Source: an uncultured Colwellia sp. (GTDB lineage: Bacteria; Pseudomonadota; Gammaproteobacteria; Enterobacterales; Alteromonadaceae). Taken from it: a stretch of DNA of 6,172 nucleotides. Of this stretch, positions 1 to 6,172 are shown piece by piece. The stretch is from assembly GCA_913020705.1 (NCBI GenBank), contig CAJWBY010000216.1, forward strand, positions 1-6,172, read 5' to 3'. Each line of letters opens with the position of its first letter. Within the stretch, counting starts at the first letter, position 1. The position numbers and the translations under genes were made by a program. The notes beneath the pieces are model-generated. The model did no database searches. It saw only the letters and a program-made list of their open reading frames with translations, and was not told where the DNA came from.

Positions 1-71
1 GTAGCTCAGTTGGATAGAGTACCAGTTTCCGAAACTGGGGGTCACAGGTTCGATTCCTGTCAGGCGCGCCA
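1..71 (+). tRNA. tRNA-Arg (anticodon CCG), 5' end truncated
   Basis: This is a transfer RNA gene missing only its first six bases, because the window begins at tRNA position 7. The visible parts are the D arm GCTC/GAGT, an anticodon stem CCAGT/ACTGG around the loop TTCCGAA (anticodon CCG, reading the arginine codon CGG), a five-base variable region, and a T arm ACAGG-TTCGATT-CCTGT. The 3' acceptor strand CAGGCGC is followed by discriminator G and an encoded CCA at 69-71. The missing 5' acceptor strand should read GCGCCT plus the G at position 1. Encoded CCA is usual in gammaproteobacteria. No terminator with a T tract follows directly. Confidence 0.96.
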
Positions 72-327
72 TTTTTCTATATTGTCTCCATAAATCAGAG
101 TAGTCAAAACTCAACCTGAATTCCAATTGGGTTAATTTGATGCCCTCAACTTTACTCTATTCCTTACGAATTATTATCTTTCCTGTCGATTGACGAGCCA
201 AAACCTGCATTGAATGTTCAAATAAATTTTGCTTCATATATGACTTTTTCCCTATTTGTCACCACTATCTTCTTCTCGACCGTCACATTCGCTATGCTGA
301 TATAAATACAACCATTTGAGTTATTTT
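72..327. other. Intergenic region between tRNA-Arg and the histidine kinase
   Basis: I see no gene in these 256 bases. A weak hairpin, AACCTGA (113-119) with TTGGGTT (127-133), contains two G-T pairs and lacks a T tract, so it is at best a poor tRNA terminator. A TTGACG box lies at 190-195 but has no matching -10 box at normal spacing. A TATAAA box at 301-306 is a possible -10 element for the kinase gene but has no convincing -35. The kinase promoter is therefore unresolved, and it may depend on an activator. Confidence 0.5.
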
Positions 328-1263
328 ATGTCTGACAAGCCAACTTATATACATACACATATCGCTATCGATACCGCAGCAGTTATTATTTTCAGTTTAT
401 TATCATGGTTTCTCGCTAGACATTTTAATTTAACCGAACGCTTTTATAACTGGAGTCGAGTCTGGGAAGATTATCAAGCTGATGAGTTATTCTTTCCTTT
501 ACTGAGTTTATCCATTGGGCTGATTTGGTTTAGTTATCGACGCTACCAACATGTAAAAATAAAAGAATTCAATAATCGTATTTTGCTTTCTGAAAATAGA
601 CGTTTAGTAAAAAAAACGACTGAAACTCAAGATAAGGAGCGTCTTTTCTTGGCACAAGAGTTACATGATATTTTTGCTCAGCACTTAACAGCTTTACGTA
701 CTAATGCTGAAACAATTCAAGCGTCAGTTAGCGGTGAGAAAACGGTAGTATTAAACGCTACAACGATGATAACGGGTAACGTGGATAAATTGCACCAAAT
801 CACCCGCTCTTTACTTAAAACACTACGCCCACCACCCCTTGAATTTGGTCTGGTCATGGCAGTCGAAGATTTAGTGACTGAGTGGCAACAGAGTCATCAT
901 TCTATTGATTGCCAACTCAATTTTCATGGTGAACAAATGGAACTTTGTGAAGAAAGCTTGCTGACTTTATATCGTACTATTCAAGAGGGTTTATCTAATG
1001 TCTCACGTCATAGTCAGGCGAAAAATGTTGTTATCAACATCTACTTCCCTGAACAAAACACCTCTGAAAAGCCATTTTTAAAACTTCAGATTATTGATAA
1101 TGGTGTGGGCTTGGATCAGGCTATTAAACAAGAAGGTCTAGGCCTCGTCGGTCTACGTGAGCGTGCAAATAGTGTAAATGGAAAATTTAGTATTTCAGCT
1201 CATTCTCCCTCTGGTAGCATTATAGAATTAATATTACCCATCAATGAAACGGTTCAGCACTAA
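328..1263 (+). CDS. Membrane sensor histidine kinase, NarX/DegS-like (HisKA_3 family)
   Basis: The protein has 311 residues from ATG 328. It autophosphorylates on histidine and should pass the phosphate to the regulator encoded next door. Two membrane segments (about 13-33 and 55-72) bracket only some 20 periplasmic residues. A charged, probably coiled-coil linker (75-105) leads to a HisKA_3 dimerisation domain with the H box E-L-H-D (His113) and the typical LRPPP turn at 166-170. The HATPase domain shows the N box (E220 to N224), the D box DNGVG at 257-261 and the glycine lid GLGLVGLRER at 270-279. There is no PAS, GAF or HAMP domain, so the stimulus may be sensed in the membrane or through a partner. 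An in-frame TTG at 316 would add four residues, but ATG 328 is preferred because a short GAG at 318-320 sits seven bases before it. The family call is firm; the signal is unknown. Confidence 0.93.
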   Translation: MSDKPTYIHTHIAIDTAAVIIFSLLSWFLARHFNLTERFYNWSRVWEDYQADELFFPLLSLSIGLIWFSYRRYQHVKIKEFNNRILLSENRRLVKKTTETQDKERLFLAQELHDIFAQHLTALRTNAETIQASVSGEKTVVLNATTMITGNVDKLHQITRSLLKTLRPPPLEFGLVMAVEDLVTEWQQSHHSIDCQLNFHGEQMELCEESLLTLYRTIQEGLSNVSRHSQAKNVVINIYFPEQNTSEKPFLKLQIIDNGVGLDQAIKQEGLGLVGLRERANSVNGKFSISAHSPSGSIIELILPINETVQH

Positions 1264-1913
1264 TGGCGGCCAGAATAACGGTCCTTCTTGTTGATGATCA
1301 TATTGCTGTACGTGAAGGCTATCGTTTGTTACTCGCCCAATTTGATATTACCGTTATTGCCGAAGCAGATAGTGGTGAGCAGGCATTTAGTGAATATCAA
1401 CACCATAAACCCGATATTGTATTGATGGATTTATCTATTAATGGCATGAATGGTCTAGACTGTATTGCTCGGATTATATTACATCACTCTGATGCTCGAA
1501 TCATTGCATTGTCAATGCATGATAATACGAATTTTGTCTCGCGTTCTATCGATAATGGCGCCATGGGCTATGTGCTGAAGAGTAATTCTTCTGAGATATT
1601 AATCAAGGCGATAAACCAAGTTCATAGTGGAAAACCGTTCCTCTGTTCAGAAGTTGCCACTGCACTGGCAATGCAGTTTGTCACACCTTCCAACGATAAA
1701 ATAGCACGTTTAACACCGCGCGAACATGCCATTTTCTTATTATTAATTGAAGGTAAAACACGACATGAGATTGCCCATACTTTATCACTTAGCACAGGCA
1801 CAGTTTCTAATAACAAAGTGAGAATCATGCAAAAACTTGCCGTTGATAATATGGTTGATTTACTAAAACTAGCACTCGAATATAACACTCTTAAACACAA
1901 CCAAATTACTTAG
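1263..1913 (+). CDS. NarL/LuxR-type response regulator
   Basis: This 216-residue transcription factor is the likely partner of the upstream kinase. The receiver domain (about 6-120) has the acidic pair D11-D12, phosphoacceptor D56 in VLMDLS, switch residue S84 and lysine K106. A LuxR/GerE helix-turn-helix domain covers about 148-208, opening with LTPRE and including the helix-turn-helix EGKTRHEIAHTLSLSTGTVS. The recognition helix reads TVSNNKVRIMQKL where relatives usually have TVKNHRxxIxxKL, so the DNA site may differ from that of NarL. The start codon shares its A with the kinase stop codon (TAATG) and has no good Shine-Dalgarno sequence of its own, which points to translational coupling in one operon. 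The target may include the receptor gene downstream; LuxR-type regulators also control methanol and ethanol oxidation in other bacteria, but the window does not prove that role here. Confidence 0.94.
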   Translation: MAARITVLLVDDHIAVREGYRLLLAQFDITVIAEADSGEQAFSEYQHHKPDIVLMDLSINGMNGLDCIARIILHHSDARIIALSMHDNTNFVSRSIDNGAMGYVLKSNSSEILIKAINQVHSGKPFLCSEVATALAMQFVTPSNDKIARLTPREHAIFLLLIEGKTRHEIAHTLSLSTGTVSNNKVRIMQKLAVDNMVDLLKLALEYNTLKHNQIT

Positions 1914-1914
1914 C

Positions 1915-1947
1915 TTAACGGGACTTTCTCCTAGCCAAAGCCGTTAA
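1915..1947. promoter_or_regulatory. Inverted repeat TTAACGG/CCGTTAA: operator or weak terminator
   Basis: The perfect 7-base arms lie at 1915-1921 and 1941-1947. As RNA the stem extends by CTTT (1924-1927) pairing with AAAG (1937-1940), with a two-base GA bulge and a nine-base loop. It begins two bases after the regulator stop codon. No T run follows directly (the first T5 is at 1961), so it is a poor intrinsic terminator. As DNA, the arm centres are 26 bp apart and lie upstream of the candidate receptor promoter, where an activator could bind. Both readings are inference. Confidence 0.5.
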
Positions 1948-1979
1948 CTCTGCATCACTCTTTTTCGGCCTATTTTCCG

Positions 1980-1985
1980 TATGAT
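1980..1985 (+). promoter_or_regulatory. Candidate -10 box (TATGAT) for the TonB-dependent receptor gene
   Basis: TATGAT matches five of six bases of the sigma-70 -10 consensus. No good -35 box lies 16-18 bp upstream (the region reads about ACTCTT), as would suit an activator-dependent promoter. Transcription starting near 1992 would leave a leader of about 33 bases before ATG 2025. Confidence 0.4.
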
Positions 1986-2013
1986 TTCAATGTGCAAAAA
2001 AACCATTTTCATC

Positions 2014-2018
2014 AAGGA
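2014..2018 (+). promoter_or_regulatory. Ribosome binding site AAGGA fixing the receptor start at 2025
   Basis: AAGGA lies six bases before ATG 2025. The alternative in-frame GTG at 1992 has no such site and lies at the predicted transcript start. Starting at 2025 also puts a normal signal peptide at the N-terminus. Confidence 0.8.
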
Positions 2019-2024
2019 AAAACA

Positions 2025-4316
2025 ATGCAATTTAAACGACATAAACTCTCACTACTCATTCATAGTGCAATGCTATTGTCAGTAATATCAACCGCCTCAT
2101 TCGCTAACAGTAACAATCCCGCCACAGCAATGGAATTGCCTACATTAAGCGTGATCAGTACCACACCACTGCCAGGTATAGGGTTACCACTTGAAAAGTA
2201 TGCAGGCAATGTTCAAACCATCGGCGCTGAGCAAATAGCCAATCAAAATCCTGTCGACATGGCAGAAATGCTATTTAGAAATATTGGCAGTGTGGATATC
2301 AACTCTGCCCAAAACAACCCATTCCAAAATGACTTACATTACCGTGGCTTTTTAGCCTCACCTCTGGTCGGTAGTGCCATAGGTGTTTCTACTTATATTG
2401 ATGGTGTTCGCGTCAATGAAGGCTTTGGAGATACGGTCAATTGGGATCTTATTCCAGAGTTTGCTATTGCCAATATGACTTTAGTACCAGGCTCTAACCC
2501 CATGTTTGGTTTGAATACCTTAGGCGGTGCATTATCATTACAAACAAAAAATGGCTTTAACTTTTCTGGGACAACGCTAGAATTATCTGGCGGTTCAGAT
2601 GATCGCCGCAATGGTACCTTTGAACATGGAGGTAGTAGTGGCAATGTTGATTGGTATATTGGTGCAAATAAATTTAAAGAAGATGGTTGGCGACAACGCT
2701 CCCCTTCTGATGTTGAGCAAGTCTTCGCCAAAGTTGGCTGGGAAAATGACACCTCTGATCTTGACCTAAGTTATAGCTATGCCGACACCGATTTAATTGG
2801 TAATGGTTTTGTACCAGAAAGTCATTTAGTCGTTGATCGCGAAGCGGTTTATACTTTCCCCGATCAAACTGAAAATGAAATGAACTTTGTTAATTTACGA
2901 GGTAGTCATTGGCTAACAGATTCTACCTTAGTCGCGGCCAATGCCTTTTACCGTAATTTTAAACGTAGTACATTGAATGGCGACGCCGAAGTTCAATGTG
3001 TCGATCCTGCCGACACTCCTGTTCTTGATGGTAATGGCGATCCTATTCATCCCACATTTTGTACGGGTCTAAATGAATTAGAAGCCGAAGGTGAAGATCG
3101 CACCACTCAGACAGAAACAGATAACTGGGGAGGTACATTACAATTAAGCCATAATTCACAAATTGCTGGGCGAAATAATATATTTATTATTGGTTCAGCT
3201 TTCGACAAAGCAAAAACAGATTTTACGGTTGCAGAAGCAGAATCAGACTTATATGCTGATGGCCTAGCACGCGGTACTCTTCCAACTGAAATAGCTATCG
3301 TCGATGTTGATATCAAAACAGAACGCGAAAACTGGGCTCTATTTTTTACCGACACTTATGATTTAACTCAGCAACTCGCATTAACTTTAGCCGGTCGCTA
3401 TCAACACACTACTATTAAAATACAAGATCAAACCGGTTTAGAAGACAAACTCAATGGCGACCATAGCTTTTCACGGTTTAATCCTGCTATTGGTCTAAGC
3501 TATAACGTCAGCCCTGAACTGACCGTGTACACAGCCTATAATGAAAGCTTTCGCACCCCAACAGCGGCAGAATTAACCTGTGCTGATCCTGAAGATCCAT
3601 GTAACTTACCCAACTCATTTGTCGCTGATCCCCCACTCGATCCTGTTATCGGTAAAACACTTGAATTAGGTGCTCGTGGTGCTTTAACCCAAGCTGGTGG
3701 TATCAATTGGAGTGCAGCTATCTTTCGCACACAACTGGAAGATGATTTACTCTTCACGGCAACAGGAACGAATGGATCTGGCTACTTTATCAATGTAGAT
3801 GAAACTCAACGTCAAGGTCTTGAACTGGGTTTAAATGGCGCAGTTAACAAATTGGCATGGTACACAAACTACAGCTTTATTGATGCCACCTTTGAATCCA
3901 ATGAATTACTGGCTAGCGTTGTAGAACCCAATGGCATTCAAGTGCAAGCAGGTGATGAATTAGCGGCTATTCCACGCCATAACGTTAAACTAGGTATTGA
4001 TTATGCCTTCACCGATACGTTTAACCTTGGCAGTAGCATGGTCTACTCTGGCAGTTCCTATATGCGCGGTGATGAAAGCAATGACTTGGACAAAGTCGAT
4101 AGCTACACCGTATTTAATCTAAATGCACGCTACCAACCAACTAAAATGGTGCAGTTATGGGCAAAAATAGACAATTTATTCGACAAAGAATATGCAAACT
4201 CAGGTATTCGTAACTTTAACTCATTCCCTGCTGATGGCGGTGAAATTGAAGAAGAACGCTTCTTATCACCAGGCGCGCCGCGTAGCGTCTGGGCAGGTGT
4301 AAAAGTAAGTTTCTAA
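2025..4316 (+). CDS. TonB-dependent outer membrane receptor (FecA-like)
   Basis: The protein has 763 residues. It is an outer membrane gated barrel that uses TonB energy to import a scarce ligand into the periplasm. A signal peptide covers 1-27 (cleavage after SFA). A TonB-box-like stretch LPTLSVIST (38-46) precedes a plug domain at about 58-178, with the motifs YIDGVRVNEGFGD and GSNPMFGLNTLGGALS. The rest is a 22-strand-type barrel: it contains the FRTPTAAEL segment common in these receptors, a late NLFDKEY motif and a C-terminal phenylalanine after FLSPGAPRSVWAGV. Two cysteine pairs, C325/C346 and C519/C526, sit in Asp-rich predicted outer loops. The ligand cannot be read from the sequence. 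Iron chelates are the default; PQQ or a metal chelate linked to a quinoprotein enzyme is possible given the SoxYZ-like gene downstream. Glycine codons are mainly GGC/GGT, as in the neighbouring genes. Confidence 0.94.
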   Translation: MQFKRHKLSLLIHSAMLLSVISTASFANSNNPATAMELPTLSVISTTPLPGIGLPLEKYAGNVQTIGAEQIANQNPVDMAEMLFRNIGSVDINSAQNNPFQNDLHYRGFLASPLVGSAIGVSTYIDGVRVNEGFGDTVNWDLIPEFAIANMTLVPGSNPMFGLNTLGGALSLQTKNGFNFSGTTLELSGGSDDRRNGTFEHGGSSGNVDWYIGANKFKEDGWRQRSPSDVEQVFAKVGWENDTSDLDLSYSYADTDLIGNGFVPESHLVVDREAVYTFPDQTENEMNFVNLRGSHWLTDSTLVAANAFYRNFKRSTLNGDAEVQCVDPADTPVLDGNGDPIHPTFCTGLNELEAEGEDRTTQTETDNWGGTLQLSHNSQIAGRNNIFIIGSAFDKAKTDFTVAEAESDLYADGLARGTLPTEIAIVDVDIKTERENWALFFTDTYDLTQQLALTLAGRYQHTTIKIQDQTGLEDKLNGDHSFSRFNPAIGLSYNVSPELTVYTAYNESFRTPTAAELTCADPEDPCNLPNSFVADPPLDPVIGKTLELGARGALTQAGGINWSAAIFRTQLEDDLLFTATGTNGSGYFINVDETQRQGLELGLNGAVNKLAWYTNYSFIDATFESNELLASVVEPNGIQVQAGDELAAIPRHNVKLGIDYAFTDTFNLGSSMVYSGSSYMRGDESNDLDKVDSYTVFNLNARYQPTKMVQLWAKIDNLFDKEYANSGIRNFNSFPADGGEIEEERFLSPGAPRSVWAGVKVSF

Positions 4317-4330
4317 CCCATATCTCAAAC

Positions 4331-4368
4331 TGACAATGCCTTCGAAATACGCTTTCAGGGCATTGTCA
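4331..4368 (+). terminator. Hairpin after the receptor gene, probable weak terminator
   Basis: TGACAATGCC (4331-4340) pairs perfectly with GGCATTGTCA (4359-4368). The stem can continue as T4341-G4358 and T4342-A4357, then past bulged C4343 into GAAA/TTTC with the loop TACGC. It lies 15 bases after the receptor stop codon. The stem is strong, but only AATTTACACTT follows rather than a T run, so it may act more as a 3' stabilising structure than as an efficient intrinsic terminator. Confidence 0.6.
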
Positions 4369-4376
4369 ATTTACAC

Positions 4377-4432
4377 TTAATCAGAAGTGTTTAGGACTAA
4401 CTCATAGTTTTTAAACGAATAAGTCTGATTAA
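4377..4432. repeat. Long interrupted palindrome TTAATCAGA/TCTGATTAA
   Basis: Perfect 9-base arms lie at 4377-4385 and 4424-4432. Inside them is a second, nested stem: GTTTAGGACTA (4389-4399) pairs with TAGTTTTTAAAC (4405-4416) using two G-U pairs and one bulged U, around the loop ACTCA. The right arm overlaps the -35 box of the candidate promoter at 4429-4456, so it could be an operator; as RNA it would fold into a 56-base stem-loop. Confidence 0.6.
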
Positions 4433-4456
4433 CTCCTTATTTAACACCAATATACT
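4429..4456 (+). promoter_or_regulatory. Candidate sigma-70 promoter for the SoxYZ-like gene
   Basis: TTAACT (4429-4434, four of six consensus bases) and TATACT (4451-4456, five of six) are separated by 16 bp. The predicted start near 4463 gives a leader of about 100 bases that contains the terminator at 4505-4533. The only alternative start region after that terminator is 37 bases of AT-rich sequence before the ATG. Confidence 0.35.
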
Positions 4457-4504
4457 TATTATCGTTTATTGAAATTCAGCTTCATTAAATATTTTCTTTT
4501 ATTT

Positions 4505-4533
4505 GGCCAGATAATCTATCTGGCCTTTTTTTT
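4505..4533 (+). terminator. Strong intrinsic terminator, possibly an attenuator
   Basis: GGCCAGATA (4505-4513) and TATCTGGCC (4517-4525) form a perfect 9-bp stem with a three-base loop, followed directly by eight T residues (4526-4533). There is no T run on the other strand, so it works on + strand transcripts only. It separates the receptor transcript from the SoxYZ-like gene. Because it sits only 29 bases upstream of ATG 4563, it may also interrupt a leader transcript of that gene. TTAAATATT occurs on both sides (4485-4493 and 4532-4540) as a direct repeat. Confidence 0.88.
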
Positions 4534-4562
4534 AAATATTCTCATAAATTGAGGAATTAGAA

Positions 4563-5441
4563 ATGATCACCTCCTTTAAACTCAATCTACCTTTTACTCT
4601 TCTTCTATTGTTATTCAACCAGATCTGCATGGCGGAAGACACTAAGCAAACAACCGCTTGGCAACAATTAAAACGCGATTATTTCGGTCAACGAGTGATC
4701 CGAGAAAATGCCACTGATCTCTTATTTATAGAGGTGCCCAACAAGGTTGAAGATGCCGCCATCATGCCCCTTACCATAAAATCACTAGCCGCCCAAACAC
4801 CTCAACATCATATAAAAACATTACATCTTATCGTTGATAATAACCCTCAGCCTTATTCTGCTGTATTCACTCTTTCACCGACACTTGGCGCGGTTAATAT
4901 TTCAACTCGCATTAGAATGGATAATTTCAGCAATGTACGCGTAATCGCCGAGATGAATGATGATAGCTTGCACATGTTAAACCGGTTTGTCATTGCTTCG
5001 GGTGGTTGTTCAGCCCCTGCCAGTAAAGATCCAACAAGTTCAATTACTAGACTAGGAAAAGTGCAGTTGAGAATGCGACAAGCGATTATTGGGCAAGAAA
5101 CAACGGCACAGGTCATTATCAGTCATCCCAATTCAAGTGGCATGCAGTTTGATAAGGCATCTCGCCATTTTATTCCCGCCCACTATGTCACTGGCATTAA
5201 TATTAGCTTTAATAATGAACCACTAATAACTGTTAAGACAGGCATCACAATCAGCGAAGATCCCAGTATTAGATTTACTTTTACCCCTCAAACAGCAGGA
5301 ATCTTAGCTGCGCAAATTTTAGCTACTGACAATCAAGAAATACACACAAAAATTGCTTCTTATAAAGAAAACTTAAAGAGTAAGATTGTAAAAGCCAATA
5401 ATGATTTGGCGGTTCATAAATACAAATTCAGAACAAACTAA
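4563..5441 (+). CDS. Fused SoxYZ-like carrier (quinoprotein-dehydrogenase-associated type), 3' end probably chimeric
   Basis: The frame has 292 codons. It starts at ATG 4563, seven bases after the Shine-Dalgarno GAGGA (4551-4555). A signal peptide (1-24, ending C-M-A) sends it to the periplasm. Residues about 35-150 resemble SoxY, whose cysteine carries sulfur intermediates on a flexible arm; the Cys is C149 in the motif SGGCSAPASKD. Residues about 165-262 resemble SoxZ (LGKVQLRMR, then ISHPNSSGMQFD and IPAHYVTGI, ending FTFTPQTAGILAAQILATD). SoxY and SoxZ are usually separate proteins. A fused family is known beside PQQ-dependent alcohol dehydrogenases, and its exact role is unsettled. The last 25 or so residues (from about 266; lysine- and asparagine-rich, with an AGA arginine codon) have no SoxZ counterpart and probably belong to another organism's gene. 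The true C-terminus is therefore likely lost. Confidence 0.85.
   Translation: MITSFKLNLPFTLLLLLFNQICMAEDTKQTTAWQQLKRDYFGQRVIRENATDLLFIEVPNKVEDAAIMPLTIKSLAAQTPQHHIKTLHLIVDNNPQPYSAVFTLSPTLGAVNISTRIRMDNFSNVRVIAEMNDDSLHMLNRFVIASGGCSAPASKDPTSSITRLGKVQLRMRQAIIGQETTAQVIISHPNSSGMQFDKASRHFIPAHYVTGINISFNNEPLITVKTGITISEDPSIRFTFTPQTAGILAAQILATDNQEIHTKIASYKENLKSKIVKANNDLAVHKYKFRTN
5330..5400. other. Probable junction between proteobacterial and Bacteroidota DNA
   Basis: Within this interval the SoxZ-like homology ends and base and codon use change. Upstream, glycine codons are mainly GGC/GGT and arginine mainly CGN. Downstream, GGA and AGA dominate. The frame stays open across the join to 5441, where its stop is followed 17 bases later by a gene of Bacteroidota type. 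The stretch from about 5360 to 5441 may be the 3' end of an unidentified gene in the same operon as the next one. The exact break point cannot be fixed by eye. Confidence 0.7.
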
Positions 5442-5458
5442 AAAATTAAGACCTCAAG

Positions 5459-6172
5459 ATGAAGTCTGTTTTTTATTACATAATATTATTAAGTTTTCCC
5501 TTATTTTCTTTTGGTCAAAACAACTTTTTAAACTCTGCACAAAGTTTAGGAATTGCAGATTGCTACACAACTCAGAAAGGCATTTGGAGTACCACTACAA
5601 ATCCAGCTGGAGGAGCAAACAGTAAAGACATCTCTGTTGGAATAGGTATTAAAAATAATTTTGGACTTAGTGAACTAAATAGCAAAACAGCTGTCGGGTT
5701 AATACCTACAAACTCTGGAGTATTTGGGTTTAGCATTCAGCAATACGGATTTAATCAGTACAACGAAAATAAATTCGGACTATCCTTTGCTAAACAACTT
5801 TCAGAAACTTTTAATTCCGGAATAAAAATTGACTATTACAGTACTCACATTCAGAATCATGAAAATACAGGATTTGTTACTTTTGAAATAGGTGTTCAAA
5901 AAAAATTAAGCAGAAAATTAATTTTGGGAAGTTTTATGCATGATCCATTAAACTTAAGTAAAAATAACAATAACCCATCAGTTATCTCCATTGGATTAGA
6001 ATATAATGTAAATCAGAAAGTCAATTTATACACAGAAACTGAAAGTACTGATTATGATGACCTAAATCTAAAAGTTGGAGTAGAATATCAGATTATTAAT
6101 CATATGTTTCTAAGAACAGGATATAGTAGTGTTTCACAAAAAAATACTTTTGGTTTTTCTTATAATTACAAA
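5459..6172 (+). CDS. PorV/PorQ-like outer membrane protein, Bacteroidota type, 3' truncated
   Basis: From ATG 5459 the frame stays open for 238 codons to the window edge, with no stop codon. The N-terminus is a signal peptide (hydrophobic YYIILLSFPLFSFG, cleaved before Gln20), a pattern common in flavobacteria. Next comes a segment with the layout of the PorV/PorQ family: SAQSLGIADCYTT, then GIWSTTTNPAGGA (about 40-52), then short alternating strands such as SVGIGIKNNFGLSEL and GVFGFSIQQYGFNQYNE. The late part continues as beta-strand hairpins, as expected of an outer membrane barrel. PorV itself is a shuttle of type IX secretion; small relatives like this one have no settled role. There is no clear Shine-Dalgarno sequence, which is normal in Bacteroidota. 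Of 21 glycine codons, 14 are GGA, and both arginines are AGA, unlike the genes upstream. Confidence 0.8.
   Translation, partial: MKSVFYYIILLSFPLFSFGQNNFLNSAQSLGIADCYTTQKGIWSTTTNPAGGANSKDISVGIGIKNNFGLSELNSKTAVGLIPTNSGVFGFSIQQYGFNQYNENKFGLSFAKQLSETFNSGIKIDYYSTHIQNHENTGFVTFEIGVQKKLSRKLILGSFMHDPLNLSKNNNNPSVISIGLEYNVNQKVNLYTETESTDYDDLNLKVGVEYQIINHMFLRTGYSSVSQKNTFGFSYNYK

Follow-up and report, generated by a model that had tools for sequence, protein, structure and literature searches.

The window, by which we mean the whole 6,172-nucleotide stretch of DNA analysed here, holds DNA from two unrelated bacteria, joined (almost certainly in assembly) in the middle of a gene within the open reading frame (ORF) at 4563-5441, and it is to be treated as an artefact that should be split rather than as new biology. 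In the reading that we prefer, to which we give a probability of about 0.94, the contig is a chimera of a Methylophaga segment (1-5294) and a Bacteroidota segment (5295-6172). A change of lineage inside one reading frame had been proposed in the initial annotation of this DNA, and it is borne out by the two parents that can be named for the frame (P0054 for its first part and P0032 for its last), by the GC content, and by change-points in composition. The features on both sides of the join are collected in Table 1.

Table 1. Features of the window on the two sides of the join and at the join itself
Feature	Position	Strand	Evidence
tRNA gene, 5' end cut by window start, Methylophaga side	1..68	+	Rfam RF00005, 52 bits; 1-71 with 98.6% identity to L001:1502-1572
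Two-component histidine kinase (HisKA_3 + HATPase_c), Methylophaga side	325..1263	+	Pfam; gene order of L001
LuxR-type response regulator, Methylophaga side	1263..1913	+	Pfam Response_reg + GerE; gene order of L001
TonB-dependent receptor, Methylophaga side	2025..4316	+	Pfam Plug + TonB_dep_Rec_b-barrel; gene order of L001
SoxYZ-like carrier (quinoprotein dehydrogenase-associated), residues 1-244, without its natural last 22 residues	4563..5294	+	TIGR04557, E=1e-69; P0054
Join zone A-G-I-LAAQI	5295..5318	+	Three-way comparison; composition break at 5313; blastn matches to L001-L040 stop by 5318
Bacteroidota-type purE, last 48 codons and stop	5295..5441	+	46/48 residues as in P0032; C-terminal ends of TIGR01162 and PF00731, below cut-offs
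PorV/PorQ-like outer-membrane beta-barrel protein, open at window end, Bacteroidota side	5459..6172	+	NF033709, E=1.4e-8; P0001-P0003

A chimera should have its best relatives in different lineages. Here the relatives were Methylophaga on the one side and Bacteroidota on the other. Each parent should also exist intact elsewhere, and this is the case for the carrier (P0054, 266 aa), for PurE (P0032, 170 aa) and for the outer-membrane protein (P0001-P0003, 262-264 aa). Lastly, no independent sequence should contain the join, and within the sequences searched, which comprised the best 120 of 1548 carrier homologues and 29 genomes of the genus of the Methylophaga MAG L001, none was found that does.

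The ORF at 4563-5441 is a single open frame of 292 aa, and its first part is a SoxYZ-like carrier. The match to TIGR04557, at 234.3 bits against a curated cut-off of 140 and over residues 33-259 of the ORF, places it in this family. Such a carrier is listed alongside PQQ-dependent alcohol dehydrogenases of Pseudomonas putida in PMC12997753. The closest protein, P0054, is identical to the window at 243 of 244 residues, with one difference up to residue 244, and as a match to the whole 292-aa query it has 98% identity over 88% of the length. Past residue 244 the two diverge, and the natural end of P0054 lies 22 residues further on. In the window this C-terminus, present in the relatives, is replaced by the PurE tail.

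The position at which the carrier normally ends is very constant. In 25 of 25 loci with a full carrier, the end lies 22-23 residues past the position of residue 244; these are the loci among L001-L040 whose carrier passed the score limit for a full protein, and 20 of them are distinct, since L011-L015 repeat L001-L005. Searching the genus turned up a full-length carrier match at 27 places; 20 of these were taken as loci (25 including L001-L005). The window is therefore like the Methylophaga carriers of TIGR04557 over residues 1-244, while it continues with 48 PurE residues where those of the 25 loci come to an end. Among the best 120 of 1548 carrier homologues, all 120 end 26-33 residues past residue 240, as against 52 in the window; the PurE tail is found on 0 of the 120, and no PurE-like score was obtained at their C-termini. 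Nor does any of these homologues have the same join, the best match covering 88% of the query and none covering more than 89%. This search was able to reveal a fusion: had any protein shared the join, it would have come out at the top, and the remaining 1428 homologues score lower.

The last part of the frame is the end of a PurE. The tail differs from P0032 at two of its 48 positions (96% identity) and finishes at the same residue. The C-terminal ends of the PF00731 (E=0.0018) and TIGR01162 (E=4.2e-5) models fall on residues 242-282, both with scores below their cut-offs; for TIGR01162 only model positions 117-155 of 156 are matched, at 23.1 bits against 149.6, which is a fragment and not a full-length enzyme. 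In comparison with PurE (5-(carboxyamino)imidazole ribonucleotide mutase, TIGR01162/PF00731), the window has the last 48 residues and the stop, and the first 122 (in the count of P0032) are absent. When residues 244-292 alone were used for scoring, 22 of 23 candidate proteins matched, all 22 of them with PF00731; as the candidates were about 87-278 aa long, this search could not have revealed a 292-aa fusion. The Bacteroidota character that had been assigned to the DNA past the join holds in that the tail is of Bacteroidota type, but it had been overlooked that the tail is a PurE C-terminus, ending where PurE ends.

The four nearest sequences to P0032 in plasmid records come from Prevotella, Parabacteroides, Bacteroides and Phocaeicola, all of them Bacteroidota, with 62-67% identity. 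The remaining 59 of the 63 plasmid records, including two of Hymenobacter, are below 60%. It was also considered whether the tail is simply the PurE of Methylophaga itself, and this was rejected: five PurE loci in four of five MAGs share 48-56% identity with P0032 across 117-147 residues, and none of the five is matched by the tail in tblastn at E<=10. Among other relatives of PurE (P0033-P0037, P0040, P0042, P0043 and P0048), several are 192-195 aa long. In P0033 and P0034, of which the full sequences were compared, the additional length lies at the N-terminus, ahead of the usual start, and probably reflects a mis-called upstream start codon.

The exact position of the join can be approached by a three-way comparison of the window, P0054 and P0032. 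Residue 244 is of carrier type, residues 245, 247 and L253-A254 are of PurE type, and G246 as well as LAAQI (248-252) are common to both parents. The most economical placement of the join would thus be 5294/5295. A Methylophaga strain unlike P0054 at residues 245 and 247 would allow a join as far along as residue 252, where LAAQI ends (base 5318). With P0054 as the parent, and with the parents compared as proteins, the switch falls just 5' of LAAQI and not inside it. The initial annotation had set the join at 5330-5460 and the end of homology near residues 262-266; this was too far downstream, as 5294/5295 (residue 244/245) is about 35 bases upstream of that interval. Matches of the window to loci L001-L040 by blastn (E<=1e-5) end at 5318 at the latest, and the match to L001 extends to this base, through the LAAQI codons common to both parents. 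The motif G-x-LAAQI stands in the same frame in both parents, in the carrier as TTGTLAAQITDN and in PurE as LNAGILAAQILATDN, and this is why the frame stays open across the join. Since the shared in-frame peptide accounts for the open frame, selection on a fusion is unnecessary.

Composition changes near the same place. The GC content drops from 0.399 in 1-5294 to 0.296 in 5295-6172, in line with the higher AT that had been noticed past the join. A blind two-segment change-point falls at 5313 both at order 0 (LLR 23.8, against a maximum of 11.2 in 200 simulations) and at order 1 (LLR 34.9 against 21.1, again in 200 simulations). At order 2 it falls at 5223, 72 bases 5' of the homology join, with an LLR of 61.2 against 54.0 as the maximum of 200 simulations. 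Glycine is encoded by GGA in 8 of 97 cases before the join and in 15 of 22 after it (Fisher p = 1.2e-8), so the statement that GGA glycine prevails there was correct. The companion statement on AGA arginine agrees with the counts for AGA/AGG, which go from 9 of 66 to 3 of 3 across the join (p = 0.004). This mark is weak, because no more than three arginines follow the join and AGA already accounts for 4 of 12 in the carrier part. As judged by eye, no sequence like a Shine-Dalgarno sequence precedes 5459, while GAGG is found ahead of 4563; its absence before the second gene had been reported correctly.

The bases 1-5294 are Methylophaga-like, to judge from the gene order of L001 and from the match of the carrier to P0054. 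Close relatives of the carrier are found in five genome loci, four of Methylophaga sp. and one of a Gammaproteobacteria bacterium. L001 and the window have one gene order in common, namely tRNA, histidine kinase, response regulator, TonB-dependent receptor and carrier, which agrees with the proteobacterial character attributed to the first genes. ARAGORN called no tRNA in the window, presumably because the tRNA gene is truncated. The start of the receptor at 2025 was picked by eye, the listed ORF beginning at 1992.

Some features of this neighbourhood deserve a separate mention. On the 3' side of the carrier, L001 has a convergent gene set including a MoxR-type ATPase, a DUF58 protein and two VWA proteins, with a Pfam match in four of six; we assume that it resembles the mxa genes of methanol dehydrogenase maturation. 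In L001 (3469-12550) the two-component system, the TonB-dependent receptor and the SoxYZ-like carrier thus adjoin the convergent MoxR/DUF58/VWA set. The receptor of the window matches the PqqU model NF041535 at E=7.5e-37, with 127 bits against 1200, which is below the cut-off, and it scores better against general siderophore and heme receptor models. One may guess at a role in the supply of PQQ or a metal to quinoprotein dehydrogenases.

On the other side of the join, the gene that follows purE had been described as PorV/PorQ-like. The likeness to NF033709 stands (Table 1), but at 34.7 bits against a curated cut-off of 90 the fragment is a relative of this family and not a member. Over its whole length the fragment is 96, 95 and 93% identical to P0001, P0002 and P0003, respectively. 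The assignment of the downstream half to the Bacteroidota comes from named distant matches (Bacteroidales and Draconibacterium for the PorV-like protein) and not from the closest ones of this protein and of the PurE tail.

Whether purE and the PorV-like gene belong together can be judged from P0038, a PurE record that is 184 aa long and not identical in sequence to the window. Here the PurE stop is lost and 14 residues follow. Eleven of them equal what the window encodes when its frame is read on beyond the purE stop, through the spacer and into the first PorV-like codons; the other three correspond to two stops in the window and one R/K difference. This one record, though indirect, supports purE and the PorV-like gene as natural neighbours in close relatives of the window, and 5295-6172 as one natural piece. 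P0038 has 26 member sequences and reads into the start of the next gene out of frame; its lost stop may be genuine variation or may stem from an error in sequencing. Three of the four plasmid-record loci nearest to P0032 were compared; one of them, L043, has an unannotated stretch at this place. In the other two, the more distant Bacteroidales loci L041 and L042, the order is rpoN, a hypothetical gene, gcvH, purE and the gene for 4-hydroxy-3-methylbut-2-en-1-yl diphosphate synthase, and no PorV-like gene comes after purE. This argues against a phylum-wide order of purE and the PorV-like gene, and the order is backed for the close relatives of the window only.

Other copies of the downstream DNA were sought in several collections. 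In runs that had no positive-control genome, the downstream DNA matched 0 of the 29 genomes of the genus of L001, and the PorV-like protein likewise had no match in them. The 25-base word spanning the join has no exact match in viral_contigs. Weak negatives are that none of 72,556 plasmid records matched the segment 5400-6172 (E<=1e-5), and that a pattern scan of viral_contigs gave no relative of the PorV-like protein or of P0032. A mobile element carrying the segment, which was considered as well, is accordingly without support from the plasmid records or viral_contigs, both being weak negatives.

The join could in principle have arisen in a cell. A real horizontal transfer would have inserted or recombined the end of a Bacteroidota purE, with the PorV-like gene, into a Methylophaga genome by microhomology; the PurE tail would then have replaced the last 22 residues of the carrier, and a gene for a Bacteroidota outer-membrane protein would have been brought in. 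The open frame and the short shared peptide at the join could serve illegitimate recombination too. However, the insert would consist of a housekeeping gene that has lost its beginning, together with its native neighbour, both halves are near intact sequences that exist separately, and no second example is present in the best 120 of 1548 carriers or, in the run without a positive control, in 29 genomes of the genus of L001. Such a transfer, together with the replacement of the carrier end and the gain of the outer-membrane protein gene, is improbable. The initial annotation had likewise preferred a chimeric contig to a real transfer, and this ranking is supported by the two separate intact parents and by the lack of another copy of the join in the sequences searched.

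A recombination of the carrier gene with a purE of the same genome is conceivable in that purE is present in four of the five MAGs searched, but the lack of any tblastn match (E<=10) between the tail and the five PurE loci of those four MAGs, and of the PorV-like protein in the 29 genomes (without positive control), makes it exceedingly improbable. The chance that there is no join at all, and that the carrier of one organism has the tail as a natural C-terminal extension specific to its lineage, is equally close to negligible. One uninterrupted ORF is what such an extension would give; yet the tail agrees with PurE at 46 of 48 residues and ends at the PurE end, the closest carrier (98%) is without it, and composition and codon use shift near the same place. 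This explanation was rejected, being contradicted by the PurE match and by the carrier ends.

A chimeric contig remains the best explanation: the headless end of purE with its native neighbour, in halves that are each near a separate existing sequence, is as expected of one. The Methylophaga segment would stop inside the SoxYZ-like carrier gene, and the Bacteroidota segment would start inside purE and run into the PorV-like gene. The join would have been made in library preparation or assembly and not in a cell, with short local similarity around G-x-LAAQI probably forming the bridge, and the 292-aa 'protein' would then be absent from any cell. Sequencing errors, or k-mers that two genomes share, can lead metagenome assembly to produce chimeric contigs, a failure described in PMC7299287 and PMC2829047. 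Like the interspecies chimeric contigs of these sources, the window has two genomes meeting at a short shared stretch, a step in composition, and intact relatives for each half. In contrast, the description in PMC7299287 is mainly of related species, whereas the two halves of the window are from different phyla.

A split of the contig at 5294/5295 is called for. As the frame runs on through the join, it yields a plausible 292-aa protein that gene callers would accept, and one way to detect such joins is to look for a C-terminus that corresponds to the end of another, unrelated family. As curation the fusion is important, for the unsplit contig would place a Bacteroidota outer-membrane gene in a Methylophaga bin; as biology it is of no importance, and it is not a real feature.
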